Shown: positions 765 to 29,339 of the stretch, piece by piece
How the letters are laid out: each line of letters opens with the position of its first letter
How positions within the stretch are numbered: the first letter of the stretch is position 1
Origin: an uncultured Alphaproteobacteria bacterium
GTDB taxonomy: Bacteria; Pseudomonadota; Alphaproteobacteria; Bin95
NCBI GenBank assembly: GCA_938083135.1
Contig: CALLKY010000102.1
Span: forward strand, 1-32,967
Direction: 5' to 3'
DNA length: 32,967 nt
Notes under the pieces: generated by a model
The model's database searches: none
Told to the model about the DNA's origin: nothing
Seen by the model: only the letters and a program-made list of their open reading frames with translations
Made by a program: the position numbers and the translations under genes

Positions 765-1679
765 ATGATTAAGTCTATAATGCAATTCACATTTGCAGCA
801 GCGCTCGCGCTGACTACGATTATCGCGCAGCCTGCTGCTGCGGCAAATGTTGGTGCCAAAACCTGCCAAGAATGCCATCGTGCTGAGTACGATGTGTGGA
901 AAGGCACCGCACACTTCAAGGCCTATCGTGGCGCGCACAAGCACAAAAATGCAAAAGCGATCGCGGCTGCCTCCGGCACTGGCAAATCCATGCGGAAAAA
1001 CAAAACCTGCATGACCTGCCATTACACGGTAATTGGCAGCAAGGCGAAAGCTGGGCCGTCCTGCGAAAGCTGCCACGGCGGCGCTTCCAAGTGGGTAAAA
1101 ACCCATAATGACCTTGGTGCTGGTGTCAAATCATCTGCAGATGAGTCTGCTGCCCACAAGAAGTCGCGCCTGGCTGCTGCGCAAAAAGCTGGCATGATCC
1201 ATTCCTCAATGGTTTACGACATTGCCGAGAACTGTAATGCCTGCCACACCATGCAGAAGATTGACCCTGCAATGGCCGGCAAGCTGATCGATGCAGGCCA
1301 TCCAATCAATGGTAGCTATGAGCTGGTGAAGTATAGCCAGGGTCAAGTTCGCCATCGCTTCTATCCCCCGAATATCACCAAGAACCAGAAAATGAACAAG
1401 GCGGAACTGTCCCGCATGTTCCTGACTGGCCACGCTGCTGGTCTCGTCTATGCGACGAAGGTTCTGAAAAGCGCCGATAACGCAAAGTACAAAGCCGCTA
1501 TGGAACAACGCGTTGCTGATGCAAAGAAAGCAATCGGCGCAGCTAAGGGCTCTGTACCGGCTGCGGGTGCACTTCTGTCCTCACCGACGGAATCAAACGC
1601 CAGGAAGTTTGTCGCCGCGTTGCAGGGCAAGGACCTGTCCGGTGCTGTCGGCGGCATGTTGCCCTCTAAGTACAAATAG
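765..1679 (+). CDS. Periplasmic tetraheme cytochrome c (c554-like)
   Basis: A 304-residue exported multiheme cytochrome. The N-terminus (MIKSIMQF, then an Ala/Leu-rich core ending QPAAAA) is a Sec signal peptide. Four heme c sites follow: CQECH (C34), CMTCH, CESCH and CNACH. The spacing and extra histidines resemble the cytochrome c554 family of electron carriers. The last ~100 residues have no heme motif and are Ala/Lys-rich and helical. The ATG at 765 has AGGGA at 752-756 as ribosome-binding site; an in-frame ATG at 780 is less well supported. It is the first gene of a multiheme cluster, separated from the next by 124 bp with a large hairpin, so it may be expressed at a different level from the genes below it. 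Inferred role: soluble periplasmic electron shuttle between the inner-membrane and outer-membrane components. Confidence 0.85.
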   Translation: MIKSIMQFTFAAALALTTIIAQPAAAANVGAKTCQECHRAEYDVWKGTAHFKAYRGAHKHKNAKAIAAASGTGKSMRKNKTCMTCHYTVIGSKAKAGPSCESCHGGASKWVKTHNDLGAGVKSSADESAAHKKSRLAAAQKAGMIHSSMVYDIAENCNACHTMQKIDPAMAGKLIDAGHPINGSYELVKYSQGQVRHRFYPPNITKNQKMNKAELSRMFLTGHAAGLVYATKVLKSADNAKYKAAMEQRVADAKKAIGAAKGSVPAAGALLSSPTESNARKFVAALQGKDLSGAVGGMLPSKYK

Positions 1680-1803: not shown

Positions 1804-3426
1804 TTGGCCTTAGCGACAAGATTAGCCCGTCCGCAACGTTGGGATCGTCCGTTCGATCCAGGTATGACCGCGGCAGATTTGGAACAGCTAAAGCTTGATC
1901 CGGTTGTCGCCGCGATTGATGCTGACGCGTTCCCAGGGACCATCCCACTTGATGGCATTCTCGCGAACGATTCGCGGATTATTCATTACAAAGCCGGTGA
2001 GATCGTCGTTCGCGAAGGCGATTACGGTAATTCCGCATTTCTTATTATGTCCGGCGCTTGCGATGTTGTCGTAAACCCGCCGCTGACCGATGCACAGCTT
2101 GGCCGCCAAACTGAAGCGCCAGCAAGCATTGGGCGCGCGATTTCACAACTCTGGAAGCGCACTGTCGTGCCGGAAGTCCGTGACGTCAGCCGTTATGGCA
2201 ATATCGCCGTCACCGAGACAGATCATCAAGCCGTTTTTCTGCAAGATTATGGCGTTGTGCTTGGCGGGCGTAGCTTGCCGCGCCTCGGCGCGCAGCAAAT
2301 GTTCGGTGAGTTGGCCGCTCTGGGCCGCACCCCCCGCGCGGCAAGTGTCGTTTGTGTCGAAGACGCAGAGGTCCTTGAAATTCGCTGGCAGGGCCTGCGG
2401 GAACTCCGCCGGTTTGACGCTGGCTGGCGCCGCCAGATCGACACCAACTACCGCGCCAATGCGCTGATCTCGCATCTGCAGGACACGCCGCTGTTCGATG
2501 GCCTGTCCGACGACGCACTGCAATCCATTGCAGACGCGACATTGTTTGAAACATATGGCTCCTTTGATTGGAGTTCTTCGTTCCAGCGCGCCGAAAGCGA
2601 CGCGCGCCTGGGCACAGAACCCGTGATTGCACGTGAAGGCGAATATCCAGATGGCCTCTTGCTTATCCGTGCAGGGTTCGGCCGCGTTTCTGTGCGCCAA
2701 GGGGCAGCAGAACGCACACTGACTTACCTATCTGCTGGCGATCATTTCGGCTTGAGTGAGCTCTATGCTGGCTTCAAGGGCGGTGGATCACCGATGGAAG
2801 CAACACTCCGTGCCGTTGGTTACGCCGATGCATTGCGTGTGCCAACTAAGGTGCTCGAAGAGCATGTCTTCCCGCGCATGAACAAAGCGCCGGATAGCTT
2901 CCTGCAATTCGCAGCCCGTCCGTTGGCTGATGATTCGCTGCAGGAATGGGCAATTGAAGAGCGTTTCATCAACGGCACCATGGCGATGCTGATTGATTTG
3001 GATAAATGCGTGCGCTGTGACGATTGCGTGCGGGCCTGCGCGTCCACCCATGGCGGCAATCCTCGCTTTGTGCGTCACGGCAAGATCAATGACCATTGGA
3101 TGGTCGCCAATGCCTGTATGCATTGCTCTGACCCCGTTTGTATGATCGGCTGCCCAACAGGTGCCATTCACCGGACACAAGCGGGCGGCTCTGTTGTCAT
3201 CAATGATGATAGCTGCATCGGGTGCGGTACGTGCGCCAATTCCTGCCCTTACAATAATATCCGCCTTGTTGAAATTCGGGACCTATCTGGTGCCCCGGTC
3301 CAGGACGAAGCGACCGGGCAGCCCATTCGTAAGGCGACAAAGTGTGATCTTTGCGCCGGTATTCCTGGTGGCCCCGCCTGTGAGCGCGCCTGCCCGCACG
3401 GCGCTCTACAGCGCGTTGATTTTTAG
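1804..3426 (+). CDS. Dual cNMP-binding domain / four-cluster [4Fe-4S] ferredoxin fusion
   Basis: A 540-residue protein without signal peptide, hence cytoplasmic. Residues ~55-200 are a cyclic-nucleotide-binding domain with an intact-looking phosphate-binding cassette (FGELAALGRTPRAASV, keeping the Glu and Arg that contact the nucleotide). Residues ~230-370 are a second, degenerate copy (FGLSELY.., no clear Arg). From C402 the C-terminus is a DmsB/NrfC-type ferredoxin with 16 cysteines in four motifs: CVRCDDCVRAC, CMHCSDPVCMIGCP, CIGCGTCANSCP and CDLC-X8-CERACP. Such subunits normally pass electrons between a catalytic subunit and a membrane quinol or heme subunit. The TTG start has AGGGGG at 1790-1795; an ATG at 1864 is the alternative. 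The next gene starts 12 bp downstream. Inferred role: ligand-gated electron transfer between the cytoplasm and the diheme membrane subunit. Confidence 0.85.
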   Translation: MALATRLARPQRWDRPFDPGMTAADLEQLKLDPVVAAIDADAFPGTIPLDGILANDSRIIHYKAGEIVVREGDYGNSAFLIMSGACDVVVNPPLTDAQLGRQTEAPASIGRAISQLWKRTVVPEVRDVSRYGNIAVTETDHQAVFLQDYGVVLGGRSLPRLGAQQMFGELAALGRTPRAASVVCVEDAEVLEIRWQGLRELRRFDAGWRRQIDTNYRANALISHLQDTPLFDGLSDDALQSIADATLFETYGSFDWSSSFQRAESDARLGTEPVIAREGEYPDGLLLIRAGFGRVSVRQGAAERTLTYLSAGDHFGLSELYAGFKGGGSPMEATLRAVGYADALRVPTKVLEEHVFPRMNKAPDSFLQFAARPLADDSLQEWAIEERFINGTMAMLIDLDKCVRCDDCVRACASTHGGNPRFVRHGKINDHWMVANACMHCSDPVCMIGCPTGAIHRTQAGGSVVINDDSCIGCGTCANSCPYNNIRLVEIRDLSGAPVQDEATGQPIRKATKCDLCAGIPGGPACERACPHGALQRVDF

Positions 3427-3438
3427 GGGGCGCCAAGA

Positions 3439-4269
3439 ATGATCGTCCGAACAGTCAACAGCGTCCGGCCCTTCGGCTACACCCTGGCGGCCATCGGTGC
3501 CGCTGTGATCGCCGGCCTCGCTTATTATTCCCATCAGGAACACCTGAAGCTCAGTGACGCCACCTTCGTCACCGGTTGGGTGTTGCTGACTGCCATGGTT
3601 TCGCTGGCGCTTTTCAACATCCGCAAGCGTCTTTCCATGATGCCAATGGGTCGGGCAGCTTATTGGCTTGCGCTGCACGTTGTCGTTGGTCTGTTCGCCG
3701 TCGGAATGTTCATCGTCCACACTGGCGGCATATGGGCCACAGGTTTCTATGAGCAAGTGATGGCTGGATTGTTTTGGGCGACCGCCCTGTCAGGCGTCTT
3801 TGGCTGGCTCTATCAGCGGGCGATGCCAAGGCGCCTTACGCGCATCGGCTATGAAGTCGTTTATGAACGCATCCCGGCTGAAATTGCTGCCCTTCGCGAG
3901 GAAGCTGAAGAAGCTGCCCTTGAAGGCGTAGGTGCGAGCGGCGAACCAACCCTTGGCCGCTTCTATTCAGAAACCATGCAGGACTTCTTCCGCCGGCCAC
4001 GCTTTATGATAAGCCACCTTCTCGGTGCAGGCGCAGCCCAGCAATGGGTTGACCTCCGGTTCCGCACGGTGCGCGGACTTGTTGGCGCACAAGAAGAACC
4101 CGCCCTTGCCCGGCTTGAAGCCGCCGCAAGACGCAAACTCTCTATAGACGCTCATTACGCCATTCAACGCTCCTTGAAGCTTTGGGTGGCGGTTCACGTC
4201 GTGCTATCTGCAGCAATGCTAACGCTTGCGGTATGGCACCTCATCCTGGTGCATGTGTACGCCCGATGA
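3439..4269 (+). CDS. Membrane diheme cytochrome b-like subunit
   Basis: A 276-residue integral membrane protein with about five transmembrane helices: ~12-31, ~41-60, ~74-96, ~99-121 and ~247-273. A soluble segment of ~120 residues between the last two is rich in Glu, Ala and Arg. Helix 3 holds H80 and H94, and helix 5 holds H253 and H267. Both are H-X13-H pairs, the geometry that ligates two stacked b hemes in cytochrome b and formate-dehydrogenase-gamma-like subunits. I see this directly; heme binding itself is inferred. GGGGG at 3426-3430 is the ribosome-binding site. The stop overlaps the next ATG (ATGA), so it is translationally coupled to the decaheme cytochrome. Likely role: carry electrons across the inner membrane between the [4Fe-4S] protein and periplasmic hemes, perhaps exchanging with quinone. 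I do not recognise a named family. Confidence 0.8.
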   Translation: MIVRTVNSVRPFGYTLAAIGAAVIAGLAYYSHQEHLKLSDATFVTGWVLLTAMVSLALFNIRKRLSMMPMGRAAYWLALHVVVGLFAVGMFIVHTGGIWATGFYEQVMAGLFWATALSGVFGWLYQRAMPRRLTRIGYEVVYERIPAEIAALREEAEEAALEGVGASGEPTLGRFYSETMQDFFRRPRFMISHLLGAGAAQQWVDLRFRTVRGLVGAQEEPALARLEAAARRKLSIDAHYAIQRSLKLWVAVHVVLSAAMLTLAVWHLILVHVYAR

Positions 4270-6374
4270 CTGAAGACAAAAACAGCTTCGCCCACGATCG
4301 CTCCCCCTATGAGCGCCCGAATTTTCCTTTCCGGTGCGGCAGGGAAGCAGCCTTTGGCAAGCCGTGCCCGCGCGGCCCAAGCGCTGGCGGTGATTGCCAG
4401 GGGATATCGGACTGCACACCATTCCGGACACGCAAGATCGTGACAAACGCTGAAACCGGCGAAGAAACAGAGATCCAGCGATGGGAATGCCGCCGCCCGC
4501 AACATGCCGGTGGCCCCTGCGCTGAAGGTCCACGACCGGACGGCACATGCTCTTGCATCCATCCGCCATGCGCGCCTAAACCGACCATCCGTCGTCAGCG
4601 CGGCCGCTGGGCAATGCTTGCAGTCGCCGCAATGGTCGCCATGGCCTTGGCATTTGTCGGCGCTGCTGGCGGGATCATTGGCCCGAAACCAGATGCAGAC
4701 GGCATTCTTAGCCATGTTGGCTGGCCGAGTTCAGTCAACCCTGGTCCGCTTTCCGGCAAGCATGAGCAATTCACGGCCAAAGACGGCTGTATTTCGTGCC
4801 ATGTCGGGCATTCAGACACATTAACGGGCTGGGCTGGTGCACTATTCGAACGCACCACCATTTCTGAGTCCTGCGTCTCGTGCCACAGCTTCGGTGAGAA
4901 GCAGGCTGATGCCGACCCTAAAGCCCAATCGCCAATGGCATTTGCCGCTCATAACACGAAATTCCCGAATCGCACGGATGCCCCTACAGCAACCTGCACG
5001 GGCTGCCACACGGAACATAAAGGTGTGGATGCTTCGATCACGCCGATGGAAGATGGCCAGTGCTCTGCGTGCCACACCACCAAGTTCGATAGTTTCTCCA
5101 AATCCCATCCGGCGTTTGGGGCAAACTTCCCGCATGAAAGTGCGCGAACCATCAAGTTCCCGCATGGCAAGCACCTAGAAACGCATTTTGTTGACCAGCG
5201 CTATATCGACAAAGCACCAAAGAATGGCTGCGTTTCCTGCCATACAGACCAGGTTGATGGGCGTTTGCTGCCCGGCAGTTTTGAGAATGGCTGTGCCGCA
5301 TGTCATGAACTTGCGATTAAGGAACAGGGAATGGTTGTCTTCGGCCTTCCTGAATTGAGCGACCCTGAATTGACCGCGGAAGCCCGCGACTCTTGCGGCT
5401 TTCCTGTGCCGCAGCTTGAGCCGGCCCGTGCGACCCTTGAGGCCCTGGCTGAGGCACTGCCAACGATGCAGGCGCTTGGTGAAAACGCCGAATCTGGCAA
5501 CCTGAACGGCGTCATGACTGCAGTTGAGGCCTTAGGCGAGGCCCAGGCCGCGATTGCCGAAGCGCAGGATGAGCTTGCTGAGGCTGTCGACATGTCGGAA
5601 GCCGTTTCCCTTGATTCGCTCTCCCCGATCGCAGCATTCCTTCTCGCCGTCCCGGCTGATGATGCGGATGAATATAGCGAAGCAGCAGCAGCCTTCCTTA
5701 TTGCCGCTGCCGCCGAAGGGCAGGCCCCGCTTGCCGAAGCAATCGACGCGAAGGGCGGTGATGCGACCGCGCTGTTGGCTGGCCTTTCGCCTGAGTTAGT
5801 GACGGAAGTTACTTGCGCTTGGGCCGCAAACACGGAATATGAACCTAAGCAAGACCCTGAACCGGGCGCTGGTTGGACTGCGCAGGAGCTGCAAGTGTCT
5901 TATCTGCCAACAGGCCATGCGGATGCTGTGACCAAGGAATGGATTGCACTTGGCCTAGCGAATCGTGGCAGTGACGATGAAGGTGCCGAAGCTTTTGCCG
6001 ACCTCGTGCTCAGCGCGGGCGACGGGCCGGGTCGTTGCTTTAAGTGTCACGTCGCACCAGCGGCAGATGCTGAAAAACAAGTCGTGCAATGGGCTATCCC
6101 ACGCGTGGATGTTCGCCCATTCACAGCTTTCAATCATGATCCGCACTTGAATGTACTGGATCAGGGCGCTGGCTGTGCTACATGCCATCGTCAGTTGGAG
6201 CCGGGCGCAACCTTGGCTGATGGGCAATCTCGCCCAGGGCCGCATGCAAACGACTTCAAGCCGATCGACCAAGCGACTTGCAAAGACTGTCACCGCCCGG
6301 GCGGGGTTCGGCAGGATTGCGCACTTTGCCACCGCTACCATAGCAATCCGTCCATCCGGAAACGGACGATGTGA
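4266..6374 (+). CDS. Membrane-anchored decaheme cytochrome c with cytoplasmic Cys-repeat domain
   Basis: A 702-residue protein. Residues 1-114 are hydrophilic and cysteine-rich, with a duplicated C-X9-C-X9-C motif (C24/C34/C44 and C75/C85/C95) plus C50, C97 and C102. A basic stretch (RRQRGR) and one transmembrane helix (~116-139) follow, placing the Cys domain in the cytoplasm and the rest in the periplasm. Ten CXXCH sites come next: six between ~175 and 347 and four between ~591 and 689. Between the two groups lie ~243 heme-free residues, largely Ala/Glu-rich and helical, with two lone cysteines. The ATG at 4266 overlaps the previous stop (ATGA). Six-plus-four heme grouping with a long spacer is unusual compared with compact decaheme MtrA-type proteins. 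Likely role: take electrons from the b-type subunit and spread them through the periplasm. The Cys repeats may bind Zn or Fe-S; no known domain is recognised. Confidence 0.85.
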   Translation: MTEDKNSFAHDRSPYERPNFPFRCGREAAFGKPCPRGPSAGGDCQGISDCTPFRTRKIVTNAETGEETEIQRWECRRPQHAGGPCAEGPRPDGTCSCIHPPCAPKPTIRRQRGRWAMLAVAAMVAMALAFVGAAGGIIGPKPDADGILSHVGWPSSVNPGPLSGKHEQFTAKDGCISCHVGHSDTLTGWAGALFERTTISESCVSCHSFGEKQADADPKAQSPMAFAAHNTKFPNRTDAPTATCTGCHTEHKGVDASITPMEDGQCSACHTTKFDSFSKSHPAFGANFPHESARTIKFPHGKHLETHFVDQRYIDKAPKNGCVSCHTDQVDGRLLPGSFENGCAACHELAIKEQGMVVFGLPELSDPELTAEARDSCGFPVPQLEPARATLEALAEALPTMQALGENAESGNLNGVMTAVEALGEAQAAIAEAQDELAEAVDMSEAVSLDSLSPIAAFLLAVPADDADEYSEAAAAFLIAAAAEGQAPLAEAIDAKGGDATALLAGLSPELVTEVTCAWAANTEYEPKQDPEPGAGWTAQELQVSYLPTGHADAVTKEWIALGLANRGSDDEGAEAFADLVLSAGDGPGRCFKCHVAPAADAEKQVVQWAIPRVDVRPFTAFNHDPHLNVLDQGAGCATCHRQLEPGATLADGQSRPGPHANDFKPIDQATCKDCHRPGGVRQDCALCHRYHSNPSIRKRTM

Positions 6375-6385
6375 GGATTAAGACG

Positions 6386-8155
6386 ATGGAAGAGAGAAAG
6401 ATGAAATTTGGAATCCGCCCCTTGGCGCGCCAACTCCTAATTGCTGGCGCTTTCGCCGTTGCAGCATTTGGCATGCCAATGACAGCCACTGCAGCCGAAA
6501 AAGAAGATCCGCATGCGGACCTTATGGCCGAGGAAAGCTATCCAACAGCCGCCCAATGCGGAGCCTGTCACACCCAGGTCTATCGCGAATGGGCGTCGTC
6601 TAACCACGCCTACGCATCGATTTCGCCGATGTTCCATAAGTTCGAGCAGAAGATTAATGATCTCTCGAGCGGCACCATCCGCGGCTTCTGCGTACGATGC
6701 CATCAACAGATCGGCACGCAGCTCAACGAACGTCGCGACCTCCCGCTTTGGGAACGCAATCAAATTTCACGCGAAGGCATTTCCTGCGTGACGTGCCACC
6801 GCGTCCGTGAAGAATTCGGCAAGGTCAACGGCGAGCGCCGGGTCACGCCAGGTCGCGTCTTCACGCCCGTCAGCGGTGCTGGCGATGGTGAAAAGCTGAA
6901 GGAAATCATTGAGAACCGCGGCGAATACCGCGTTTCTGTCAGTGAAGAAGAACGTGGTGCGCAAATTCACACAGGCGTTTACAAATTCCCGCAGATCTCG
7001 AAGTCTGAATTCTGCGTGTCTTGTCACCAGGTTGCTGTGAACCCAGGCATTAAGCTTGAAGTCGTTTGGGAGCAATATCGGAATTCACCGGCTGCTGCCA
7101 ATGGCGTGACCTGCCAAGATTGCCATATGGGTAAAGTGCCAGGCCGGGCTGATGGATACACGACCGGGCCTGTCGCTATCGTGAATGGCGAAGAGATTGA
7201 TCCAGACCGCAAGCACTCCAACCATGCCTTCTACGGCCCTGGTTACCCAATTGCGCATCCTGGTATCTTCCCACACAATCCGGATGCAGCCGAAATCCCC
7301 ATCGAGGACTGGCTCGAATTCGACTACCGCTCTAAGTGGGGCTCGGAAGAGTTCGAAGAGAAAGTCGAGAACGGCGAAATTGATGAAGACAGCCTGCCAG
7401 CCGCATGGTCCGATTCAGTTGACCGTGAGGAAGCTTGGGAAATCATCCAGGAGAACATTGGGCTTCTGGAAGAAAAGCGCGATCTTCGCCGCCAAGTGAT
7501 GGAAAACGGTTCCCGTCTTGACGGTCCGTTCTTCGCCAGCGCGCCGAAGCAAGGGTCCTCGCTCAGCTTTGACATCAAACTGACCAATACCGATGACGGC
7601 CATAACCTGCCGTCTGGTTCTCTCGGCGCTCAGCCTGAAATTTGGCTGAACGTTGCTGTCGTGTCGCCCAGCGGCAAGACGGTATGGGAATCAGGTTACG
7701 TTGATGCGAATGGTGATATGGCTGACATCCACTCCCTAGAAGTGGCAGCTGGTAACATTGAGTACGACGACCAGCTGTTCAACCTGCAAACCAAGTTCCT
7801 GTTCACGAACGTTAAGGGGACTGAACGCGAATGGTATCTGCCGATCAATATTGATATTGATCAGCTTCCATTCATCCGCCCAGCAAACGTGCCAACGACT
7901 ATCTTGAACCATGCACCATTCATCCGCATGGAAGGTCGTTCGATCCCACCACTTGGGTTCCGTAACGCTAGCTACACCGTGCCGGCAGACGCGATGACGG
8001 AAAAAGGCACATACCAAATGGCTGTCCGCCTGCGGAGCCGCGCCGAACCGATCTACTTCATGCGGTTCGTCGAAGCGACGCCGGAAATGGAAGAAGCCAT
8101 GAACAGCTGGATGCTTGATTTCCATTCCTACACCGTGGAATTCGAAGTCAACTGA
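6386..8155 (+). CDS. Exported pentaheme cytochrome c with C-terminal heme-free domain
   Basis: A 589-residue exported protein. The start at 6386 has GAGGA at 6373-6377; a second ATG at 6401 is also preceded by a purine-rich stretch. A signal peptide runs to about TATAA (residue 37). Five heme c sites lie in the first half: CGACH (C58), CVRCH, CVTCH, CVSCH and CQDCH (C243). Residues ~248-589 have no heme motif and look beta-rich, with DDGHNLPSG, a motif resembling the GHxLPTG element seen near the C-terminus of several multiheme cytochromes. The first half resembles the c554-like multiheme family. The gene starts 11 bp after the decaheme gene, so the two are co-transcribed. It could be a periplasmic carrier, an active-site reductase, or the partner of the beta-barrel encoded next. 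No lipobox Cys is seen at the signal-peptide cleavage region, so surface lipoprotein anchoring is unlikely. Confidence 0.82.
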   Translation: MEERKMKFGIRPLARQLLIAGAFAVAAFGMPMTATAAEKEDPHADLMAEESYPTAAQCGACHTQVYREWASSNHAYASISPMFHKFEQKINDLSSGTIRGFCVRCHQQIGTQLNERRDLPLWERNQISREGISCVTCHRVREEFGKVNGERRVTPGRVFTPVSGAGDGEKLKEIIENRGEYRVSVSEEERGAQIHTGVYKFPQISKSEFCVSCHQVAVNPGIKLEVVWEQYRNSPAAANGVTCQDCHMGKVPGRADGYTTGPVAIVNGEEIDPDRKHSNHAFYGPGYPIAHPGIFPHNPDAAEIPIEDWLEFDYRSKWGSEEFEEKVENGEIDEDSLPAAWSDSVDREEAWEIIQENIGLLEEKRDLRRQVMENGSRLDGPFFASAPKQGSSLSFDIKLTNTDDGHNLPSGSLGAQPEIWLNVAVVSPSGKTVWESGYVDANGDMADIHSLEVAAGNIEYDDQLFNLQTKFLFTNVKGTEREWYLPINIDIDQLPFIRPANVPTTILNHAPFIRMEGRSIPPLGFRNASYTVPADAMTEKGTYQMAVRLRSRAEPIYFMRFVEATPEMEEAMNSWMLDFHSYTVEFEVN

Positions 8156-8192
8156 TTGGGGATCGCCGCAGGTGAATGAGGGGAATAGAAGC

Positions 8193-9731
8193 GTGACACT
8201 AAGTTTTTCAAAGATGACCGGTCGCATTGCATTGACAACAGCGGCTTCGGCTCTGGCGATGATGGTCGCCACTGGCGGTCCTGCATATGCAGCGAGTGCC
8301 CATGATGACAGCCCGCGCAAAATGGATCCGAATGTTAAACCATCGGAGCATGACGCAGACGTCTTCAAGGCGGATCCAACATACGAAGAAAAAGCGTATG
8401 ATGCGGAGCGTCAACTCGAAATCTATGGCGGCAAGCGCAACATTGAGGAGCCACGCCCGATCCTAGAGGTCGGTCGTCCGCAATATGTAGAAGGTCCATT
8501 CGACGAAGGCATTAATGTCGTTGGCGAAAAGAACCTCTTGTTCCCGTCCTTCTCGGTCTTCGGTGACTTCCGTACAGCGGTTGCCGCTAACGATGTTGGC
8601 GGCGATGTGGTCTACGAGTTCGCGAACCGCCTGAACCTGGACCTCGACCTTAAGCTCACCGGCACAGAGCGTATTCACGGGTTCTTCCGGCCGATAGATC
8701 AGAACGGCAAGTTCATGGGGTATCGAACCGGTGACAAGAACGGCAATAACGGCGTTGATGGAAAATTCGATGCCAACCCAGAAACACTGTTCTTCGAGGG
8801 CGACATCGGTGCCATTTACGGCGGCTTAGCTGACGAATATGCAACGTTTGACCTGCCAATCGCATTTGGCCTGACGCCGTTCGTTATGCAAAACGGCCTT
8901 TGGGTTGATGATGCATTTATTGGCGGTGGCATTTCACTGGCGGCATTGAACAGTCCAGCCCTTGATATCACCAATATGGACATCACCTTCTTCGGTGGGT
9001 TCAACGAAATTGATTCCCCTGCTTTCGTTGGTCGGGATGGTGTGCTCGACACCAACGATGTATCGATTTATGCAGTGGCCGCGTTCGTTGAATGGTTCGA
9101 AGGCTACTCAGAATTCGGCATCGGCTACGTTGATGGTCGCGACCTTTCTGATGATATTGACTATGTGAACTTTACCGGTGCCTTCACCTCCCGATACGGT
9201 GGTTGGCTTTCAAACTCTGTCCGCCTGTTTGGTGCTGTTGGCCAGGACACGGATGTTCGTTCCACAACTGCAAACGGTTTTGCTTTGCTGGTCGAAAACT
9301 CATTGATCACATCCAAGCCAGATGTCTATGTCCCCTACTTCAACGCCTGGGTCGGTATTGATAAGCCGCAATCCTTGGTGCGAAACAATGGTGGTCTGCT
9401 GAAAAATACCGGCATCACCTTTGAGAATGACGGCATGACCTCATTCCCGAAACTGGACGATACCGCCCAAGATACCTTTGGCGGTGCCATTGGTATCAAC
9501 TACCTATTCAGCTTGGACCAACAGCTTGTTGTGGAAGCATCCACGGTGCAGACATTGGCCGGTGACGAGGTTGCGGGCCAGCCGGCGCAAGGCGCGCAGT
9601 ACGGCCTTGGCTTCCGCTATCAGATTCCTGTCACGAACCGGGTTATCCTCCGGGCTGACGGCATCTACGGCATTCGTGAAAATGAGAAAGATATTGGCGG
9701 CGTTCGCTTCGAGGTGCGCGTTAAATTCTAA
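8193..9731 (+). CDS. Outer-membrane beta-barrel (porin-like) of the cytochrome operon
   Basis: A 512-residue protein starting at a GTG with GAGGGGAA at 8179-8186; the ATG at 8214 is an alternative. A signal peptide ends near GGPAYAASA. A charged linker of ~90 residues follows, then repeated short amphipathic stretches of alternating polar and hydrophobic residues, aromatic girdle-type residues, and a C-terminal strand ending RFEVRVKF. A terminal Phe on such a strand is typical of BAM-assembled outer-membrane barrels. No heme motif is present. I do not recognise it as MtrB or PioB, which are larger. Its position 37 bp after the pentaheme gene and before the reductase suggests it forms the outer-membrane part of the electron conduit, although it could be a substrate porin. 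Acidic Asp/Gly-rich loops such as DKNGNNGVDGKFD look like calcium-binding turns. Confidence 0.75.
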   Translation: MTLSFSKMTGRIALTTAASALAMMVATGGPAYAASAHDDSPRKMDPNVKPSEHDADVFKADPTYEEKAYDAERQLEIYGGKRNIEEPRPILEVGRPQYVEGPFDEGINVVGEKNLLFPSFSVFGDFRTAVAANDVGGDVVYEFANRLNLDLDLKLTGTERIHGFFRPIDQNGKFMGYRTGDKNGNNGVDGKFDANPETLFFEGDIGAIYGGLADEYATFDLPIAFGLTPFVMQNGLWVDDAFIGGGISLAALNSPALDITNMDITFFGGFNEIDSPAFVGRDGVLDTNDVSIYAVAAFVEWFEGYSEFGIGYVDGRDLSDDIDYVNFTGAFTSRYGGWLSNSVRLFGAVGQDTDVRSTTANGFALLVENSLITSKPDVYVPYFNAWVGIDKPQSLVRNNGGLLKNTGITFENDGMTSFPKLDDTAQDTFGGAIGINYLFSLDQQLVVEASTVQTLAGDEVAGQPAQGAQYGLGFRYQIPVTNRVILRADGIYGIRENEKDIGGVRFEVRVKF

Positions 9732-9779: not shown

Positions 9780-11045
9780 ATGGATAATCTGGCGAACTAT
9801 GTCGCCATAGGCGCAGCTGGACTGCTGGGCCTTTACATTCTGTCTCTGTTGATGGGATCGCTCCGTCAACAGAGCCGTATGGCGCGGCATTATGAGGAAC
9901 AATCCTTGCTATTCCGCGCTCGTGCGGAAGGTTTGCAGAGGATCCGTGCTGAGGAGATCGAGAAGACCCAGAACACCTGGGCAGGTCTTCGGAAGTTCAA
10001 AGTTGCTCGTAAGGTCAATGAGATCGCGGATTGCCACTCTATCTACCTCGAGCCTCATGACGGGCGGCCTTTGCCACCGTTCGAGCCGGGCCAATTCCTA
10101 ACGTTCAAGTTCGCTGTGCCGGATCAGCCCAGCGACGTCATCCGGTGCTACTCCCTGTCCGATGCACCTGGCCGTGACTACTATCGGATTACCGTAAAAA
10201 AGGTGCTGCCGCCCCGTGGCAAGCCTGAAATCGCACCTGGCGTTTCCTCCACCTTCGTCAATGAAATTCTGAGTGAAGGCGATATCATTGATGTGCGTGC
10301 GCCCAATGGCGGGTTCTATCTAAAGCGTGAACATAAGCGCCCCGTCGTCCTGATCGGCGGCGGCGTTGGCATCACGCCTGTGCTCAGCATGCTGAACTAC
10401 ATTGTTGAGCATGAGCCGCAGCGGGAAACATGGTTCTTCTTTGGCGCACCGAATAAGGCTGGCCACATTATGAAGGATCATCTAGCCCAAATCGCGGCGG
10501 AGAACCCAAATGTCCGCATGCATATTTGCTACAGTGACCCGACCGATGACGATGTGCTTGGTGAAGATTACGACCATCACGCCCGCGTCTCTGTAGAATT
10601 GTTCAAGAAAGTTCTGCCTTCTAACAATTTTGAATACTATTTCTGCGGCCCACCGCCGATGATGAATGCGCTTGATGCAGACCTCAAAGCTTGGGGCGTA
10701 CCAGAAGCTGACATTCATTCTGAAGGCTTTGGCCCCGCTTCGGTCAAAAAGCCAAAACCACCTGCGGCGGAAGGTGCTGCAGAAGAAAAAGCTGTTTCAG
10801 TTACGTTTGCAAAATCCGGCAAAACCCTGGACTGGACACCAGCAGCTGGAACGATCCTTGATTTCGCGGAAGCGAACGGCGTTGATATCGCATCAGGGTG
10901 CCGTGCAGGGAGCTGTGGCACGTGCCTTACAGCCGTTATGGAAGGCGATGTCGATTACGAGACGCCGCCAGATGCTCCGATCGAAAATGGCTCATGCCTC
11001 GCATGTGTAGGCACGCCAAAAGGGCCGATCAAGATCAACGCCTAA
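9780..11045 (+). CDS. Membrane-anchored NAD(P)H reductase with flavin and [2Fe-2S] domains
   Basis: A 421-residue protein. An N-terminal transmembrane helix (~7-27) is followed by basic residues (RQQSRMAR), so the bulk faces the cytoplasm. Residues ~70-330 form a ferredoxin-NADP reductase-like unit: RCYSLS binds flavin, GGGVGITP is the nucleotide loop, and CGPPPMM is the usual C-terminal NAD(P) motif. Residues ~345-421 are a plant-type [2Fe-2S] ferredoxin (CRAGSCGTC, then a fourth Cys in SCLACVG). The FNR-then-ferredoxin order matches HCP reductases and some oxygenase reductases. It would take a hydride from NAD(P)H and deliver single electrons. GGGGAAGAG just before the ATG is the ribosome-binding site. 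As last gene of the operon it is the likely electron entry (or exit) at the cytoplasmic face. Confidence 0.88.
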   Translation: MDNLANYVAIGAAGLLGLYILSLLMGSLRQQSRMARHYEEQSLLFRARAEGLQRIRAEEIEKTQNTWAGLRKFKVARKVNEIADCHSIYLEPHDGRPLPPFEPGQFLTFKFAVPDQPSDVIRCYSLSDAPGRDYYRITVKKVLPPRGKPEIAPGVSSTFVNEILSEGDIIDVRAPNGGFYLKREHKRPVVLIGGGVGITPVLSMLNYIVEHEPQRETWFFFGAPNKAGHIMKDHLAQIAAENPNVRMHICYSDPTDDDVLGEDYDHHARVSVELFKKVLPSNNFEYYFCGPPPMMNALDADLKAWGVPEADIHSEGFGPASVKKPKPPAAEGAAEEKAVSVTFAKSGKTLDWTPAAGTILDFAEANGVDIASGCRAGSCGTCLTAVMEGDVDYETPPDAPIENGSCLACVGTPKGPIKINA

Positions 11046-15612: not shown

Positions 15613-18600
15613 CTAACTGGAGCCTGATGTTTGGGGGCCACCTAACGGATCGCCCCCAGTATCGTCATCGCTTGCGCCAAGGATATCATCCAGATCAGCG
15701 ACCAGATCGCGCAACACCGCTTCCTCTGAATCAAACCGATCCGCTTCATCTTCAACGAATGCGTCGACCTGCAGGTTCTCGGACGTAGGTTTGGCCGCCA
15801 ACTGCAATTCTTCGGCTGTCGCATCCTCATCCACTGCAACGCCACCTTGGCGGCCCCAGCGATCGAGCGTGGCGTTTAAGCGGCCATGGTCTATAGGCTT
15901 CGACAGGAAGTCATCCATGCCAGCGTCCATGCAGCGCTTACGGTCCTCGACCATGGCGTTTGCCGTCATTGCGACGATGGGCGTTTTGGAAGCAACATTG
16001 TCCATGGCGCGGATCTCACGGGTCGCGTCCAGGCCGTCCATCTGCGGCATCTGCATATCCATGAAGATGACATCATATTTTTTGCGCAGAACCGCAGACA
16101 GCGCTTCCAGGCCGTTTTCTGCAATATCAACGCGATGATTACCCAGCTTCAGCATCGCCGTCGCAACCATCTGGTTGACGCGATTGTCTTCCACCAGCAG
16201 CACATCCAACGGTGCCAGGAGGCCGCTGTCATCATTGGTCGGCGGATCGATGGTCACGTCTGCCACCTCGTCCTGGTTCGGGTTCAATAGCTGCCAGGAT
16301 CGCACTGGCGCCGCCACAACCCCATCGACCGCTGGCAAGGCCAGCAAGTCATCTGTATCCGCCCGTTCCTTAGAGATTACGACGATACGCCGCTCCGTGT
16401 CATGGCCCAACTTTGCGACAACAGTCACAAGGTCGTGCACGTTTAGATCTGCGCTCTCCAAAATACCAATCGTTTTGGTGCTGATTGACGGGTCATCTAA
16501 GGCCCGTAAGCCGCTTGCCGCATCATCCGCAATCAGGGCATCAGCGCCAGCATCTTCAACGGTTTTCACGATCATCTGGCGCGTTAAGCTGTCTTGGCCA
16601 ATGATCAGCCAATCGCCCGTATCTTGCGGCGGTTCAATGGATTGCGCCGTATCAGCGGGCACGAAAGGTGCCTCGACCCAGAAGCAACTCCCTTCACCAG
16701 GTGCGCTCTCAACACCAATCCGGCCGCCCATCAACTCAATCAATTGCTTTGAAATGGTCAGCCCAAGCCCGGTGCCGCCATACCGTCGCGTGGTAGATGC
16801 GTCCGCTTGGGTAAATGGCGTGAACAGCTTTTCCAGAACCTCTGCCGGAATACCGATACCAGTATCCTTAACCTCGAACCGAACCGTCGTTGTACCTGTA
16901 CTGGTTTGGCTGATCGCACGAGCGTTTATGGAGATGCTGCCCTCTTCTGTGAACTTGGTCGCATTGGACACAAGGTTCAGCAATATCTGACGGAGCCTAT
17001 TGGCATCGCCAAGCAGCCTATCTGCTAGACCAATATCTGCATAAGCAACAACTTCCAGCTGCTTAACAGCCGCGCGAGCACCCGCGATATCCAGCACGGC
17101 ATCCAGTAGACCTTTCAGGCTGAATTCTTCTGTCTCAAGCTCAATCCGCCGCGCTTCGATCTTTGAAAGATCAAGCACGTCATTAATGAGCGTCAGCAAA
17201 GCTTCGCCGGAGTTTTGGATCGTCTCGACCTGGCGGCGCTGCTCCGCCTGCATTTCGCTTTCCAGCAGCACGGACGCCATACCAAGCACGGCGTTCATTG
17301 GTGTACGGATTTCATGGCTAATCATGGCCAGGAATTCAGACTTCGCCCTATTCGCCGCCTCCGCCGCCTGGCGTGCCTCTATCAGTTCCGTCACATCGGT
17401 CCAAACGCCAACGACACCGCCTTCAGACGTTCGACGTTCATCCGAAATAATCCAACGATTACGCGTAGTTTGTTTGGTTATTGGGCCAATGTCGTTGAGG
17501 TGCTCGAACATACGTTTATCGATGAACGCTTTTCGCTCTTTGCCTGTCAACTTTCTATAATCGGCGATTGAAGACGGGATTTTTTCAAATTGCTCTCCAA
17601 TCTGCAGCCTGTAGCCGTCCAGTGGAGACATCTCACTAAATGCCTTGTTGCATGCCACTAGACGATCATCAGCATCGAACAAAGCAAATGAGTTTGTCTG
17701 GGCGTCAATCGCCTGCTCAAGCCGGCGCCGCGCAGCTGCGGCTTCTTCCATCAACCGCGCGCGCTCGCCCTCCAGCTGTTTCTCATAGTCGATTGAGAAC
17801 GCAGCACCGCGATAGCCCAAGAATTCGCCATTATCGTCAAAGAAGGGCACGCCACTGGTACGTAACCACCCGTCGTTACCGTCCGGCCCTGCGCGGATAA
17901 ATTCAAAGTCACGGAATGGTTCATGGGCAAACATTGCCCTTTCGACTTCATCAAGCTCGGACCGTACGGCCTGCACGCCAGCCGCCATAAGGTCTCGCCG
18001 CGTTTTGCCGTAATGCCATTCAGGTTTCACGCCGGCCATCCGCTCGACGCTCTCGGTCATGAAGACAAAGCGATGCTCGGCGTCTGTCTCCCATATCCAA
18101 CCTGACAGAGCCTGCGTGGTGTCATTCATGCGCTCGACCGCTAAGCCGCGCTCGCGCTCGATCAGCTCTTGGCCACGCAATAGCTTCAGTTCATAGGCCT
18201 TCCGGTCCGCAATATCGTGCCACTCGATGAGGGCAGCAGGTTGGTCGCCATAGGCAATCCGCGTTGAGGAGACCTGCACATCCAGCGGTGATCCATCCAG
18301 CCGCGTATGTCGCCATTCGAACCGCGTACTCCCATCCAGGCGAATAATCGTGGCATTCTCGCGGACACGCTCGGCGGACAATGCTCCATCTGGCTGATAT
18401 TCCGGGGAAATCGCATCCATATGGAGCCCGATGATCTGCTCCTTCTGCGCCGCGCCGATAAGCGACAATGCGGCAGCATTACAGTCGACAATAACAGACT
18501 CTCTCACAATCAGGTGGCCCGTCGTGGATCGTTCGAACAGTGCCTTAAACCGTGCTTCCGCTTCGAAGCTGTCTGTGACGTCACGGAGAAGCCAAACTTC

Positions 18601-20562
18601 AGCCTCGTCAGCCCGATACCCGGCCCACTCCACCTGGCGTATCGAACCATCTGGTTTACGGATGGGGAAACTCAGGGAACGGGAGAAGCCTGTACGAACT
18701 TCTTCTTCGTAGGTCTCCCGCGCTGGGATTTCAGGCCTAACCGGCACCAGGCGGAACCAGTCATCCAAGCTGGTCAGCTCATCCCGTGATCGGCCCGTCA
18801 TCTCCTCAACATAGGCATTGATCGTCATTTGCCCGTTTTCGACATAGACAGCACCGGCTGGCAGCAATTCCACCATGTGGGCAAGTCTACGCTCAGACGC
18901 TGCCAAGCGTTGCTCCGCGCGCCGACGCTCTGTGATGTCGTAACCAACTGTTACGAGACCGATGCTTTCCCCCGCTTCATTGAGCTGCGGGTATTTCATA
19001 ATATGCAGAATGTAATCGCCAGCCGGTCGTTCGAGCTCTAGCGGTTTACCGGTTTCCAAAACAAGCCGGTCCCGAGCGTCAATGGCCCGGCCCATATCGG
19101 TTGGAATAGCGTCCGCCATCCGCTTGCCAACGCCGTCGCTGTCCTGCTCGAGGTTGAATACCTGGGCAAAACGCTTGTTGTAGATCAGTAACCTGCCATT
19201 CGGGTCTTTGACGCTAACTGTCGCTGGCAGCTGATCAATCACCGCGCGGAGAAGCTGTTCGGACGCTGCGACTGCTGCTCGCGATGCCGCAAGCTCCAAC
19301 TCACCCTGCCGTTCCTTATTGATGTCACTGGTGACGCCCCGATAGCCCAGGAATTTGCCACTCGGGGTGAACATCGGCGAACCGGAACACCGGACCCATA
19401 CGGTTCCGTTGGTTTTCGTATCAATGCCGTATTCAAAGTTCTTGAACGGTCGCCGGGCCTCCAAGTCAACAATATGCGGCTGCCATTCGGGATGATCCTC
19501 TGGCACTTGAACCCGCGCGAGCTGCCAGCGTGTTTTACCGAAAAGACCGTCGAGCGCCCCTTCTTCGAGCTCCTCGCCGACTGCCCTGATGTGGGTCAAT
19601 CGATGCTCTGCATCTGTCTCCCAGAAAACGTCGGCGCTTGCCCGTGCCCAATCCGCAAGCCGCTGCTCGCTCTCAGCTGCCAATTTCTTCGCTCTTGCGC
19701 GCTCACGATCCGATCTGGATGCGCGAACAGCCATTATCGATGCTGCCAGCACAAGCACGATTGCAATGGCTAAAGAAAACGGGAATCGCCCAAGCCAGCA
19801 GGCGAGTACCGCCGAGTGTGGCTGCGAAAATGTTACGTAAAGCTGATGCTTAGGGTCGTACCGCCAGCCTACAAGCCGATGAGAGCCATCCGTGTTGATG
19901 GCCTCGATATCCGATACGCCACTCATCGCACCGGACTGCTTTATCGCCTGGAACAATGGCCCCTTGCTAGCGTCCTTACCAACAAGCCCTTCCAACATTG
20001 GCCTGCGCCACCAAATTTGACCATCCGCCGTCGCGATTGCGATGGAATCTGCTGCGTCTTCTCCGATATCGGTCCAAAGGCTGCTTAGCCGATCGAGTTC
20101 AATTGTGGTGGCTAGGACATGGTTATCGCGATCAAGCGTTGCGAGAATGGCCCGCCATTTACCGTCAAGTTGGAATGGGAGGCTAAGTCCCGGTCGACCG
20201 TCCCGCCTGTTGGCGATCGCTTGGCGTATTGGCTTTGATAGACTGGCGGAAACCAGATCAATATCTGGCGCAACAATTATGCCTTCAGCCGCACCATCTG
20301 CCGCTCCAAAAACAATCCCATCGCGGATATAGCGCGGTTTATCAGCAACCGCAGCGAGGCGCGCCTCTGCATTTTCCAACATAATTGAAAGCGGGAGATG
20401 GGCGGTTCGACTTTGATGGAGAAGATTGCGGCTAACGAAATATCGCGAATCATTCCAAGACCATGCAGCCCAAAGTGCCACAGCCATCATCAGACCTGCG
20501 ATGAGAGCCGCAATCGCCCACTTCGATTCAAGTCGGTATAGTGGCAGCCGCGCTTTCGCCAT
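15613..20562 (-). CDS. Large membrane hybrid histidine kinase with multiple PAS domains
   Basis: A 1649-residue sensor kinase. Two transmembrane helices (~14-35 and ~257-281) bracket a ~220-residue periplasmic sensor. About six PAS-type domains follow up to ~1060, several closing with the typical VGYDITERR or GYRGVTSDI ending. The kinase core has SHEIRTPMN with phosphorylated His H1083, NLVSNATKF, DTGIGIP, FTPFTQAD and GTGLGLTIS. Next come a degenerate receiver-like segment (~1330-1440, DWLIIGQDSL, lacking the acidic pocket) and a true receiver with VLLVEDN, phospho-acceptor D1502 in FMDMQMP and the Lys in FLSKPI. The acidic ~80-residue tail has no Hpt domain, so a separate phosphotransfer protein is needed. 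No response regulator is adjacent. GGTGAG precedes the ATG. The stimulus is unknown. Confidence 0.92.
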   Translation of the reverse strand: MAKARLPLYRLESKWAIAALIAGLMMAVALWAAWSWNDSRYFVSRNLLHQSRTAHLPLSIMLENAEARLAAVADKPRYIRDGIVFGAADGAAEGIIVAPDIDLVSASLSKPIRQAIANRRDGRPGLSLPFQLDGKWRAILATLDRDNHVLATTIELDRLSSLWTDIGEDAADSIAIATADGQIWWRRPMLEGLVGKDASKGPLFQAIKQSGAMSGVSDIEAINTDGSHRLVGWRYDPKHQLYVTFSQPHSAVLACWLGRFPFSLAIAIVLVLAASIMAVRASRSDRERARAKKLAAESEQRLADWARASADVFWETDAEHRLTHIRAVGEELEEGALDGLFGKTRWQLARVQVPEDHPEWQPHIVDLEARRPFKNFEYGIDTKTNGTVWVRCSGSPMFTPSGKFLGYRGVTSDINKERQGELELAASRAAVAASEQLLRAVIDQLPATVSVKDPNGRLLIYNKRFAQVFNLEQDSDGVGKRMADAIPTDMGRAIDARDRLVLETGKPLELERPAGDYILHIMKYPQLNEAGESIGLVTVGYDITERRRAEQRLAASERRLAHMVELLPAGAVYVENGQMTINAYVEEMTGRSRDELTSLDDWFRLVPVRPEIPARETYEEEVRTGFSRSLSFPIRKPDGSIRQVEWAGYRADEAEVWLLRDVTDSFEAEARFKALFERSTTGHLIVRESVIVDCNAAALSLIGAAQKEQIIGLHMDAISPEYQPDGALSAERVRENATIIRLDGSTRFEWRHTRLDGSPLDVQVSSTRIAYGDQPAALIEWHDIADRKAYELKLLRGQELIERERGLAVERMNDTTQALSGWIWETDAEHRFVFMTESVERMAGVKPEWHYGKTRRDLMAAGVQAVRSELDEVERAMFAHEPFRDFEFIRAGPDGNDGWLRTSGVPFFDDNGEFLGYRGAAFSIDYEKQLEGERARLMEEAAAARRRLEQAIDAQTNSFALFDADDRLVACNKAFSEMSPLDGYRLQIGEQFEKIPSSIADYRKLTGKERKAFIDKRMFEHLNDIGPITKQTTRNRWIISDERRTSEGGVVGVWTDVTELIEARQAAEAANRAKSEFLAMISHEIRTPMNAVLGMASVLLESEMQAEQRRQVETIQNSGEALLTLINDVLDLSKIEARRIELETEEFSLKGLLDAVLDIAGARAAVKQLEVVAYADIGLADRLLGDANRLRQILLNLVSNATKFTEEGSISINARAISQTSTGTTTVRFEVKDTGIGIPAEVLEKLFTPFTQADASTTRRYGGTGLGLTISKQLIELMGGRIGVESAPGEGSCFWVEAPFVPADTAQSIEPPQDTGDWLIIGQDSLTRQMIVKTVEDAGADALIADDAASGLRALDDPSISTKTIGILESADLNVHDLVTVVAKLGHDTERRIVVISKERADTDDLLALPAVDGVVAAPVRSWQLLNPNQDEVADVTIDPPTNDDSGLLAPLDVLLVEDNRVNQMVATAMLKLGNHRVDIAENGLEALSAVLRKKYDVIFMDMQMPQMDGLDATREIRAMDNVASKTPIVAMTANAMVEDRKRCMDAGMDDFLSKPIDHGRLNATLDRWGRQGGVAVDEDATAEELQLAAKPTSENLQVDAFVEDEADRFDSEEAVLRDLVADLDDILGASDDDTGGDPLGGPQTSGSS

Positions 20563-26785: not shown

Positions 26786-28309
26786 CTAACTTTCCGTTCC
26801 GAAATCAAAAATGCCAGCGCCCGTCGGCGCGTTCGGCGTGACAGCGCCATGCGCTGCTGTTGGATTTAGGGCGAGAAGACCCGCCGCGTCCAGTCCGCCA
26901 AGGGATAATGTTTGCGTCACCACCCGCGCGGCCTCACCTTGCCCAAGCAAAGGTTCTGCCAGACGGGTGAATTTGGTGACATAATCCGCTTCCTGCCAGG
27001 GTGCCGCACCATTCGGATGCGCATCCGCCGCAGCCTTCTCGAAGTTCAGAACCTCACCAGATTTCAGCGTCAATTCCAACCGGCCGCCATAAGCACGTTC
27101 GGTTGGATCATCGGCGTGATATCTGCGCGTCCATTCATCGTCGAGCATTGTTTCAACGCGGTTCCACAAAGCCACAGTCCTCTCACGGCCCGCCCGTTCC
27201 GGCGTATAACTGGCTTCATGGTCCCAGGCACGGTCTTCAAGCGCGACTGCGAGGATATACATGATGGAGTGATCCAAGGTCTCACGGCTGGCCTTCGGGT
27301 CCATCTTCTGGGGATCATTCGCACCGGTACCGATCACAAAATGTGTGTGGTCTGATGTGTGCAGCACAGCCCGTTCAATCATCGCAGGATCAACCGCAGC
27401 GCGGGCTTCAAACGCCAGATCAATGATCGCTTGGGCCTGATATTCCGCCGAATGTGCTTTCGGGAATGTCTCTAGAATCCCGGCGGGCGGCGCGCCGCGT
27501 ATCGGCAGGCGGACCGTGTATCGTGCGTCCTTACCGGCGAGCATCCACGGAATGATTGAGTCTTCGCCCTCATAAATCGGATTAGGCGCACCCTCACCCC
27601 GCATAGCCCGATCAAGCGCCTCAACGGCGATCTTGCCAGCCTGCGCCGGGGCATATGCTTTCCACGAGCTAATATCGCCCTTGCGCGATTGCCGGGTCGC
27701 AAAACTCAGGTGGACCGCCTGATTGATCGCTTCATAGATCACACGCGGTGCCACACCCATGAGTGATCCTGCACCTGCTGCAATTGCCGGTGCCAAATGA
27801 GCCACATGGTCTTTCTTGAAAGAATGCAGATCAATCGCACGGACCAAGGCCACGTGGATTTCATAGGCAATGGCAATCGCACGGGTTAGCGCAACGCCGC
27901 TCCGCCCCGTCTGCTGCGCCACGGCCAGGAGCGGTGCGATACAGTCACTTGGGTGGGCGAAGTCTGCGGCGAGATAGGTATCGTTGTAGTCCAGTTCCCG
28001 AACAGCGACGCCATTGGCAAACCCGGCCCATTCACAATCGACACGAATATCTGGGCTCAACCCAAGCAATGCCGCGCCGCCTGCACGCGGATGCGCCAAC
28101 GCCATTGCCCGGGCAGAAGCCACAGGACTGCGATTGATCGCCGCCAGGCCCACGGCAAAGCTATCGAGCACCCGCAGCCGCACCATCTGGCCGATGTCTG
28201 GCGGAATATCTGGCGAGGACGCTGCCCAGGCGGCCATGCGGCCAGCCAACTGCTCTTCCCAATGGGGAGTCTCACCCGAAGGAAGTGCGCGGATTGTGTA
28301 ATCCCGCAT
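26786..28309 (-). CDS. MmgE/PrpD family dehydratase, copy 1
   Basis: 507 residues of the 2-methylcitrate dehydratase / cis-aconitate decarboxylase superfamily. Helical N-terminal features include RLRVLDSFAVGLAA, FANGVAVRELDYNDTY, HPSDCIAPLLAVAQ, AYEIHVAL and the DHVAHLAPAIAAGAG stretch. The C-terminal alpha/beta lid contains FPKAHSAEYQAQAIIDLA and DHSIMYILAVAL, positions where the family has substrate-contacting His residues. It is somewhat longer than typical. ATG and the prpB stop share one base (TGATG), so it is coupled to the lyase gene upstream. Together they would perform dehydration (or hydration) and retro-aldol cleavage of a tricarboxylate. Only 27-30% type divergence from copy 2 is expected by eye; the two are not recent duplicates. 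Confidence 0.9.
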   Translation of the reverse strand: MRDYTIRALPSGETPHWEEQLAGRMAAWAASSPDIPPDIGQMVRLRVLDSFAVGLAAINRSPVASARAMALAHPRAGGAALLGLSPDIRVDCEWAGFANGVAVRELDYNDTYLAADFAHPSDCIAPLLAVAQQTGRSGVALTRAIAIAYEIHVALVRAIDLHSFKKDHVAHLAPAIAAGAGSLMGVAPRVIYEAINQAVHLSFATRQSRKGDISSWKAYAPAQAGKIAVEALDRAMRGEGAPNPIYEGEDSIIPWMLAGKDARYTVRLPIRGAPPAGILETFPKAHSAEYQAQAIIDLAFEARAAVDPAMIERAVLHTSDHTHFVIGTGANDPQKMDPKASRETLDHSIMYILAVALEDRAWDHEASYTPERAGRERTVALWNRVETMLDDEWTRRYHADDPTERAYGGRLELTLKSGEVLNFEKAAADAHPNGAAPWQEADYVTKFTRLAEPLLGQGEAARVVTQTLSLGGLDAAGLLALNPTAAHGAVTPNAPTGAGIFDFGTES

Positions 28310-29241: not shown

Positions 29242-29265
29242 GACCCGTCCCCCGCCCTTTGTCAG

Positions 29266-29296
29266 TTCCTTGGCTCTTGCGTGGAGGGCCAAGGAA
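29266..29296. promoter_or_regulatory. Dyad between divergent prpB and prpF operons, probable operator
   Basis: TTCCTTGGC (29266-29274) and GCCAAGGAA (29288-29296) are perfect 9-base inverted arms, 22 bp centre to centre, two helical turns. It lies in the 98-bp divergent spacer, 25 bp from prpB and 43 bp from prpF, where one dimeric regulator could control both operons. No regulator gene is adjacent. Confidence 0.6.
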
Positions 29297-29339
29297 ACTC
29301 AATAATCTGGATCATACCGCGCCTTTTGGAGGACGCCAG

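Follow-up and report, generated by a model that had tools for sequence, protein, structure and literature searches.

A conserved fusion of cyclic-nucleotide-binding domains with a four-cluster ferredoxin, encoded among multiheme cytochromes: a candidate cyclic-nucleotide-gated electron conduit

Introduction

Control by second messengers is well established for ion channels, kinases, and transcription factors. We describe a gene whose product joins two cyclic-nucleotide-binding (CNB) domains to a four-cluster iron–sulfur (Fe-S) ferredoxin in a single chain. The gene occupies positions 1804..3426 of a 32,967-nucleotide stretch of DNA from an uncultured Alphaproteobacteria bacterium (assembly GCA_938083135.1, contig CALLKY010000102.1), referred to here as the window, and is flanked on the same forward strand by genes for a probable cytochrome b, multiheme cytochromes c, a putative outer-membrane protein, and an NAD(H)-linked reductase. 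We discuss the architecture and conservation of the protein, its gene cluster, a related family in which a flavoprotein is part of the same chain, and the manner in which a bound nucleotide may control electron flow. If this interpretation is true, respiratory or extracellular electron flow would be a direct target of signaling by cyclic AMP (cAMP) or cyclic GMP (cGMP), via a pocket covalently joined to an Fe-S relay.

Two CNB domains and a ferredoxin in one chain

The protein has 540 residues, starts at a TTG codon, and was delineated by Pfam, phmmer, alignment, and a structure model: two CNB folds come first, and behind them lies a ferredoxin that has 16 cluster cysteines. Pfam matches cNMP_binding to the 540-residue protein at an expectation value (E) of 4.8e-24 and 84.6 bits, in three stretches; the genome-wide scan places these PF00027 pieces at 1981-2070, 2275-2406, and 2623-2862. 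There are three stretches for two domains because an insertion, unremarked in a first-pass annotation of the sequence, splits the first domain. No transmembrane segment is predicted in the protein, and no helix-turn-helix of the CRP/FNR type occurs among the 13 Pfam matches in the open reading frames (ORFs) scanned around the gene. That first-pass annotation, made from the sequence alone, had proposed two CNB domains ahead of a four-cluster ferredoxin in one cytoplasmic chain; the Pfam matches, the model, the 16 cysteines, and the lack of a predicted transmembrane segment all bear this out.

An AlphaFold2 model built from 74 sequences reached a mean predicted local distance difference test score (pLDDT) of 85.1 and a predicted TM-score (pTM) of 0.77, superseding an earlier, poor run with 13 sequences (pLDDT 64.5). 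The leading Foldseek matches of this model are the tandem-CNB regulatory subunits of protein kinase A (PKA-R) and of cGMP-dependent protein kinase (PKG) (6rsx, E 2.9e-18). The whole-chain Foldseek TM-scores are low (approximately 0.2, with root-mean-square deviations (rmsd) of 11-25), which we attribute to domains shifting relative to one another; the single-domain VIA-align comparisons given below were used instead. The window protein resembles the PKA-R and PKG modules in its two consecutive CNB domains, its top Foldseek matches, and the profile match of its first cassette. It differs from them in that it has no kinase, its output domain is a four-cluster ferredoxin, its second CNB domain is degenerate, and its first carries an insertion.

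Relatives and samples

In a sample of 398 genomes from the phylum, 12 genomes besides that of the window carry relatives over approximately the whole chain (in one, L046, in two pieces), with 42-50% identity to the window protein over most of the query; the window's genome is itself part of the sample. Ordinary ferredoxins account for many of the weaker matches in this search. GTDB contigs were also scanned, using patterns that lie in the ferredoxin and not in the CNB domains; this yielded at least 546 relatives, and the 80 best were retained. They were ranked against the whole query, a choice that favors full-length members, and each of the 80 aligns with almost the full length of the query. 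By record title, the kept relatives come from Alpha-, Beta-, and Gammaproteobacteria, Nitrospinota, Omnitrophota, Verrucomicrobia, Elusimicrobia, Planctomycetes, and Chloroflexi, at least seven phyla by name; most of these records are metagenome-assembled genomes (MAGs), and the titles naming Chloroflexi, Rhizobium, and Asaia may belong to misbinned MAG contigs. Two complete chromosomes are among the best 80 of at least 546: Kordiimonadales bacterium IMCC3096 and Planctomycetales bacterium ZRK34.

Residue conservation was counted over 93 sequences (the window and 92 loci) or, where a total of 78 is given, over a separate set dereplicated at 90%. Overall identity of the aligned proteins to the window protein is 41-76%. 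The architecture and its conservation far exceed chance.

One pocket kept, one pocket lost

CNB domain 1 (residues 40-225; 1921..2478) is MloK1/PKG/PKA-R-like by VIA-align and by profile match. Model residues 19-220 superpose on 3cl1_A, the cGMP-bound CNB domain of a Mesorhizobium loti channel, with Z 16.4 and rmsd 2.3 (129/130 aligned); with the Pfam score of the whole protein, this identifies domain 1 as a PF00027 member, a CNB beta-roll with C-terminal helices. The best profile match is a cGMP-dependent kinase (5ezr_A, E 1.4e-22, in several short pieces). The likeness to the channel protein MloK1 is one of fold: MloK1 gates an ion channel, whereas the CNB module of the window is attached to an electron carrier.

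The phosphate-binding cassette of domain 1 was located by alignment at residues 167-182 (2302..2349) and contains Gly168, Glu169, Ala172, Arg175, and Arg178. In CNB cassettes, the Glu contacts the ribose and the Arg contacts the cyclic phosphate of the ligand. Gly168, Ala172, Arg175, and Arg178 are each present in all 93 sequences and Glu169 in 92, so that the canonical Gly-Glu pair and the Arg are both in place; the preceding Phe167 is found in 78 of 78. These cassette positions align with those of cGMP-dependent kinases in the profile search. The residue that follows Arg178 differs among the 78 dereplicated sequences (53 Thr, 19 Ser, 3 Asn, and 3 Ala, one of these in the window) and was not used to choose between cAMP and cGMP.

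Within domain 1, between strands 86-89 and approximately 159-160, lies an insertion of about 70 residues (91-158; 2074..2277). It retains Glu124 in all 93 sequences, Arg101 in 89, and Arg126 in 90; the invariance of Glu124 indicates that the insertion is not filler.

CNB domain 2 (residues 228-365; 2485..2898), defined by alignment and VIA-align, has the fold and a degenerate cassette. Residues 215-365 superpose on the CNB-B domain of PKG (4qx5) with Z 15.4 and rmsd 1.8 (126/127 aligned), and its sequence match to solved CNB domains is weak (a PKA-R profile at 1e-5). The cassette region holds no conserved Arg in the 78 dereplicated sequences, while the CNB fold is retained in the model. The first-pass reading of a canonical first cassette and a degenerate second one thus extends from the window to the family.

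It is very doubtful that both domains are ligand-free scaffolds, their fold serving to position the ferredoxin between the reductase and the cytochrome b. Such a role would suit domain 2, degenerate in 78/78 dereplicated sequences; in domain 1, however, Gly168, Arg175, and Arg178 are invariant among proteins that have otherwise diverged so far. That the pocket of domain 1 is kept while domain 2 has lost its Arg in the same chain suggests a role in ligand binding.

The ferredoxin domain

The C-terminal domain (residues 393-540; 2980..3423) is a four-cluster [4Fe-4S] ferredoxin of the HycB-like kind, identified by phmmer, VIA-align, and its 16 cysteines. Several Pfam 4Fe-4S families match at residues 432-536. 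The cysteines form four sets of four, as expected for four clusters, and all are present in 93 of 93 sequences except Cys441 and Cys526 (92 of 93 each). In a phmmer search of solved structures, the types nearest to the window protein are HycB ferredoxins (7qv7_A, E 1.3e-16; 7z0s_B, E 1.9e-13), and residues 389-540 superpose on HycB of formate hydrogenlyase (7z0s_B) with Z 14.9 and rmsd 3.9 (144/170 aligned). The domain thus shares sequence and fold with the HycB ferredoxins of formate hydrogenlyase and of the hydrogen-dependent carbon dioxide reductase (HDCR); unlike them, it is preceded by CNB domains, and no hydrogenase or formate dehydrogenase was found in the window cluster. As a side observation, the CNB-ferredoxins of three loci (L066, L118, L119) carry one CxxCH motif each, either by chance or as a heme site.

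The first-pass annotation had called this domain a DmsB/NrfC-type respiratory subunit. No molybdopterin catalytic subunit and no NrfD/DmsC membrane subunit was found by Pfam in ten ORFs around the gene, and the membrane partner encoded at 3439-4269, with its four invariant histidines, has no NrfD or DmsC Pfam match. The name therefore describes the fold only, and the nearest types are those of HycB.

The conserved gene cluster

Neighbors were counted in the 55 loci that extend at least 4.5 kb upstream and at least 7.5 kb downstream of the CNB-ferredoxin gene, a BLAST match anywhere in the locus, on either strand, being scored as presence. Conservation within partner proteins was assessed over closed ORFs within set length limits (80 membrane proteins and 54 outer-membrane proteins, the window included).

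Directly downstream of the CNB-ferredoxin gene lies the gene for a membrane protein with four predicted transmembrane segments, a probable diheme cytochrome b (3439..4269). Its Pfam support is weak (DUF4405, E 0.019). His80, His94, His253, and His267 are present in 80 of 80 aligned proteins and form two pairs in two transmembrane helices, a b561-like arrangement. The protein is matched in 54 of the 55 loci, and in 87 of 90 loci its gene is the next one after that for the CNB-ferredoxin. Of the three exceptions, one (L039) has no membrane-protein match in the fetched stretch, and in the other two (L064, L098) the choice of ORF start makes the neighbors overlap. L039 keeps the CNB-ferredoxin and c554-like genes, with the cytochrome b, decaheme cytochrome, and reductase all unmatched in the fetched stretch.

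The c-type cytochromes surround this pair. Upstream is a tetraheme c554-like cytochrome, predicted to be periplasmic (765..1679; PF13435, E 1.6e-10; 4 CxxCH; signal-like N terminus), matched in 51/55 loci. Downstream is a membrane-anchored decaheme cytochrome (4266..6374; 10 CxxCH; transmembrane residues 116-134; PF14522), matched in 54/55. A cysteine-rich N-terminal head, eight of whose cysteines are conserved at 90% or more among 79 sequences, precedes its transmembrane segment (4266-4600); no known family matched this head. Next comes a pentaheme c554-like cytochrome with a long C-terminal domain (6371..8155; 5 CxxCH), matched in 42/55 loci, with PF13435 in all 27 members scanned.

The following gene (8115..9731, the likely start Met at 8214) encodes a putative outer-membrane protein with a signal-like N terminus and a C-terminal Phe. 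It is matched in 41/55 loci, and the C-terminal Phe recurs in 51 of 54 members. A home-made statistic of beta-strand alternation gives a weak signal (mean z 1.37, against 0.3 and 0.8 in two soluble controls). The only matches from a profile search of the PDB were to consensus-TPR or designed proteins; almost all lay at profile positions of approximately 46-108, and we read them as chance. In combining multiheme cytochromes with a putative outer-membrane protein, the cluster is similar to the porin–cytochrome conduits MtoAB, Uet, and PCC3, as listed in PMC10734462. It differs in that its outer-membrane protein has no Pfam porin match, and in having a direct NAD(H) reductase and a CNB-ferredoxin instead.

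The remaining cluster gene encodes an NAD(H)/FAD reductase that has a C-terminal 2Fe-2S domain and an N-terminal transmembrane anchor (9780..11045; PF00175, E 8.8e-21; PF00111, E 1.5e-12; transmembrane residues 8-26), matched in 52/55 loci. Its presence bears on the main rival ligand: the CNB domains could sense NADPH or NADH and so inform the conduit of redox state, a role that has been proposed for HoxI of the soluble NAD-reducing hydrogenase. HoxI of Ralstonia likewise ties a CNB-like domain to an NAD-linked redox enzyme; PMC12319191 reports it as a subunit thought to bind NADP, and PMC3189943 cites a title on NADPH activation of that hydrogenase. HoxI is a separate small subunit, unfused to Fe-S clusters, unlike the CNB module of the window. 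An NAD(H) reductase encoded in the cluster fits such sensing. Against it stand the Glu (92/93) and Arg (93/93) of domain 1, which in CNB domains that bind cyclic nucleotides are in contact with the ribose and the cyclic phosphate; we consider NAD(P)(H) sensing improbable.

A sister family with the flavoprotein in cis

The weaker matches of the phylum-genome search led to a sister family of 14 loci (L018-L031), of which nine, chosen by hand, were fetched with their flanks (L127-L135). These proteins, of 800-1,100 residues, combine a flavoprotein of the pyridine-nucleotide-disulphide type, two CNB domains, and a four-cluster ferredoxin in a single chain. A cytochrome b-like protein and a cytochrome with 9-10 CxxCH motifs adjoin the gene in 9/9 fetched loci, and in two of them (L127, L129) the cytochrome b is fused onto the chain. 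The sister family therefore shares with the window the CNB-CNB-ferredoxin core and similar cytochrome b and decaheme neighbors. It differs in its flavoprotein in cis, in its two canonical cassettes, and in the FHA-like N terminus of some of its multiheme cytochromes. No BLAST match to the window-type pentaheme and outer-membrane proteins was found in the nine fetched loci.

Cassette alignment was attempted for all 14 loci; the motif filter failed to pick up L130, which was left unaligned, and in the other 13 both cassettes retain Gly, Glu, and Arg. Two canonical cassettes in 13/13 aligned chains speak further against ligand-free scaffolds.

The fusions bear likewise on another alternative, in which bound cyclic nucleotide controls assembly of the complex, membrane docking, or stability rather than electron flow itself. 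The conserved insertion of domain 1, with its invariant Glu124, could be a docking surface, and the tandem CNB module of PKA-R, to which Foldseek finds the fold similar, acts by binding or releasing a partner. Recruitment as the whole role is at odds with the covalent joining of CNB domains, ferredoxin, and cytochrome b in 2/9 sister loci, and we judge this alternative unlikely. The same fusions favor, for the window cluster, a chain that runs from flavoprotein to CNB-ferredoxin, then to cytochrome b and the decaheme cytochrome; in that cluster a reductase of a different type is encoded separately.

The N termini of the sister multiheme cytochromes match FHA or the FHA-like Yop-YscD family at E of 1e-3 or better in five of seven scanned, and two of the seven exceed the curated FHA cut-off. 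PMC10734462 mentions an unexplained 10-heme "Forkhead-associated protein" in Gallionellaceae; we would guess that this could be a decaheme partner of the sister family.

A possible cyclic-nucleotide-gated conduit

We propose, with moderate confidence, that the window protein is the cytoplasmic Fe-S subunit of a transmembrane, NAD(H)-linked conduit, with a cyclic nucleotide in domain 1 acting as its allosteric switch. Electrons would pass between the membrane-anchored NAD(H)/FAD/2Fe-2S reductase and the four predicted [4Fe-4S] clusters of the CNB-ferredoxin, and from these via the inner-membrane diheme cytochrome b to the membrane-anchored decaheme and periplasmic c554-like cytochromes; from there, in the majority of clusters, the path would probably lead on to the pentaheme cytochrome and the outer-membrane protein. 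Domain 1 would bind cAMP or cGMP, whose direct control of electron flow the first-pass annotation had also put forward, and the degenerate domain 2 would relay the signal structurally, as happens in tandem CNB regulators. The bound nucleotide would alter ferredoxin docking or electron passage, and so open or close the conduit post-translationally. Cofactor content, the order and direction of electron transfer, the ligand, and the gating are all proposed from the genes and the fold model. We infer a cyclic-nucleotide switch because one pocket is selectively kept, the tandem layout is PKA-R-like, and the arrangement recurs in the sister family. We suggest, more tentatively, that the conduit class is widespread and exists in two forms, one with a separate reductase and one with a flavoprotein in cis, and that cAMP or cGMP may switch, without transcription, the electron flux that crosses the inner membrane and probably leaves the cell as well.

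Several points weigh against gating by cyclic nucleotides or against a conduit that reaches the cell surface. Met replaces the ribose-contacting Glu169 in one locus (L044). The HoxI case implies that, in an NAD-linked enzyme, a CNB fold can be used for a different ligand. The insertion may cover the pocket of domain 1. The putative outer-membrane protein of the window has no Pfam match, and 38 members gave single-member matches only (E of at least 0.039). Finally, an association with class III cyclases was dropped as support: such cyclases occur in 13/13 gene-bearing genomes and in 79/100 sampled genomes, which is uninformative.

No description of the CNB-ferredoxin fusion or its cluster was found in the open-licence full-text literature, a scope in which subscription papers and preprints mostly do not fall. 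As far as we searched, the components are each of a known kind, and their combination and its conservation are undescribed. CNB domains do occur in other settings, such as the family 2b encapsulins noted in PMC8049743; a further paper, PMC4999443, proved unrelated.

Other features of the window

Beyond the cluster, a family scan identifies a hybrid histidine kinase of 1649 residues, with several PAS domains and a receiver, on the reverse strand at 15613-20562. At the contig edge (48-470) there is a partial match to an IS481-like transposase (41 bits, against a cut-off of 224). Genes with family matches to MmgE/PrpD, PEP mutase-like, and PrpF proteins lie adjacent to one another at 26786-30518, a group that we take to resemble a methylcitrate/propionate-type cluster.
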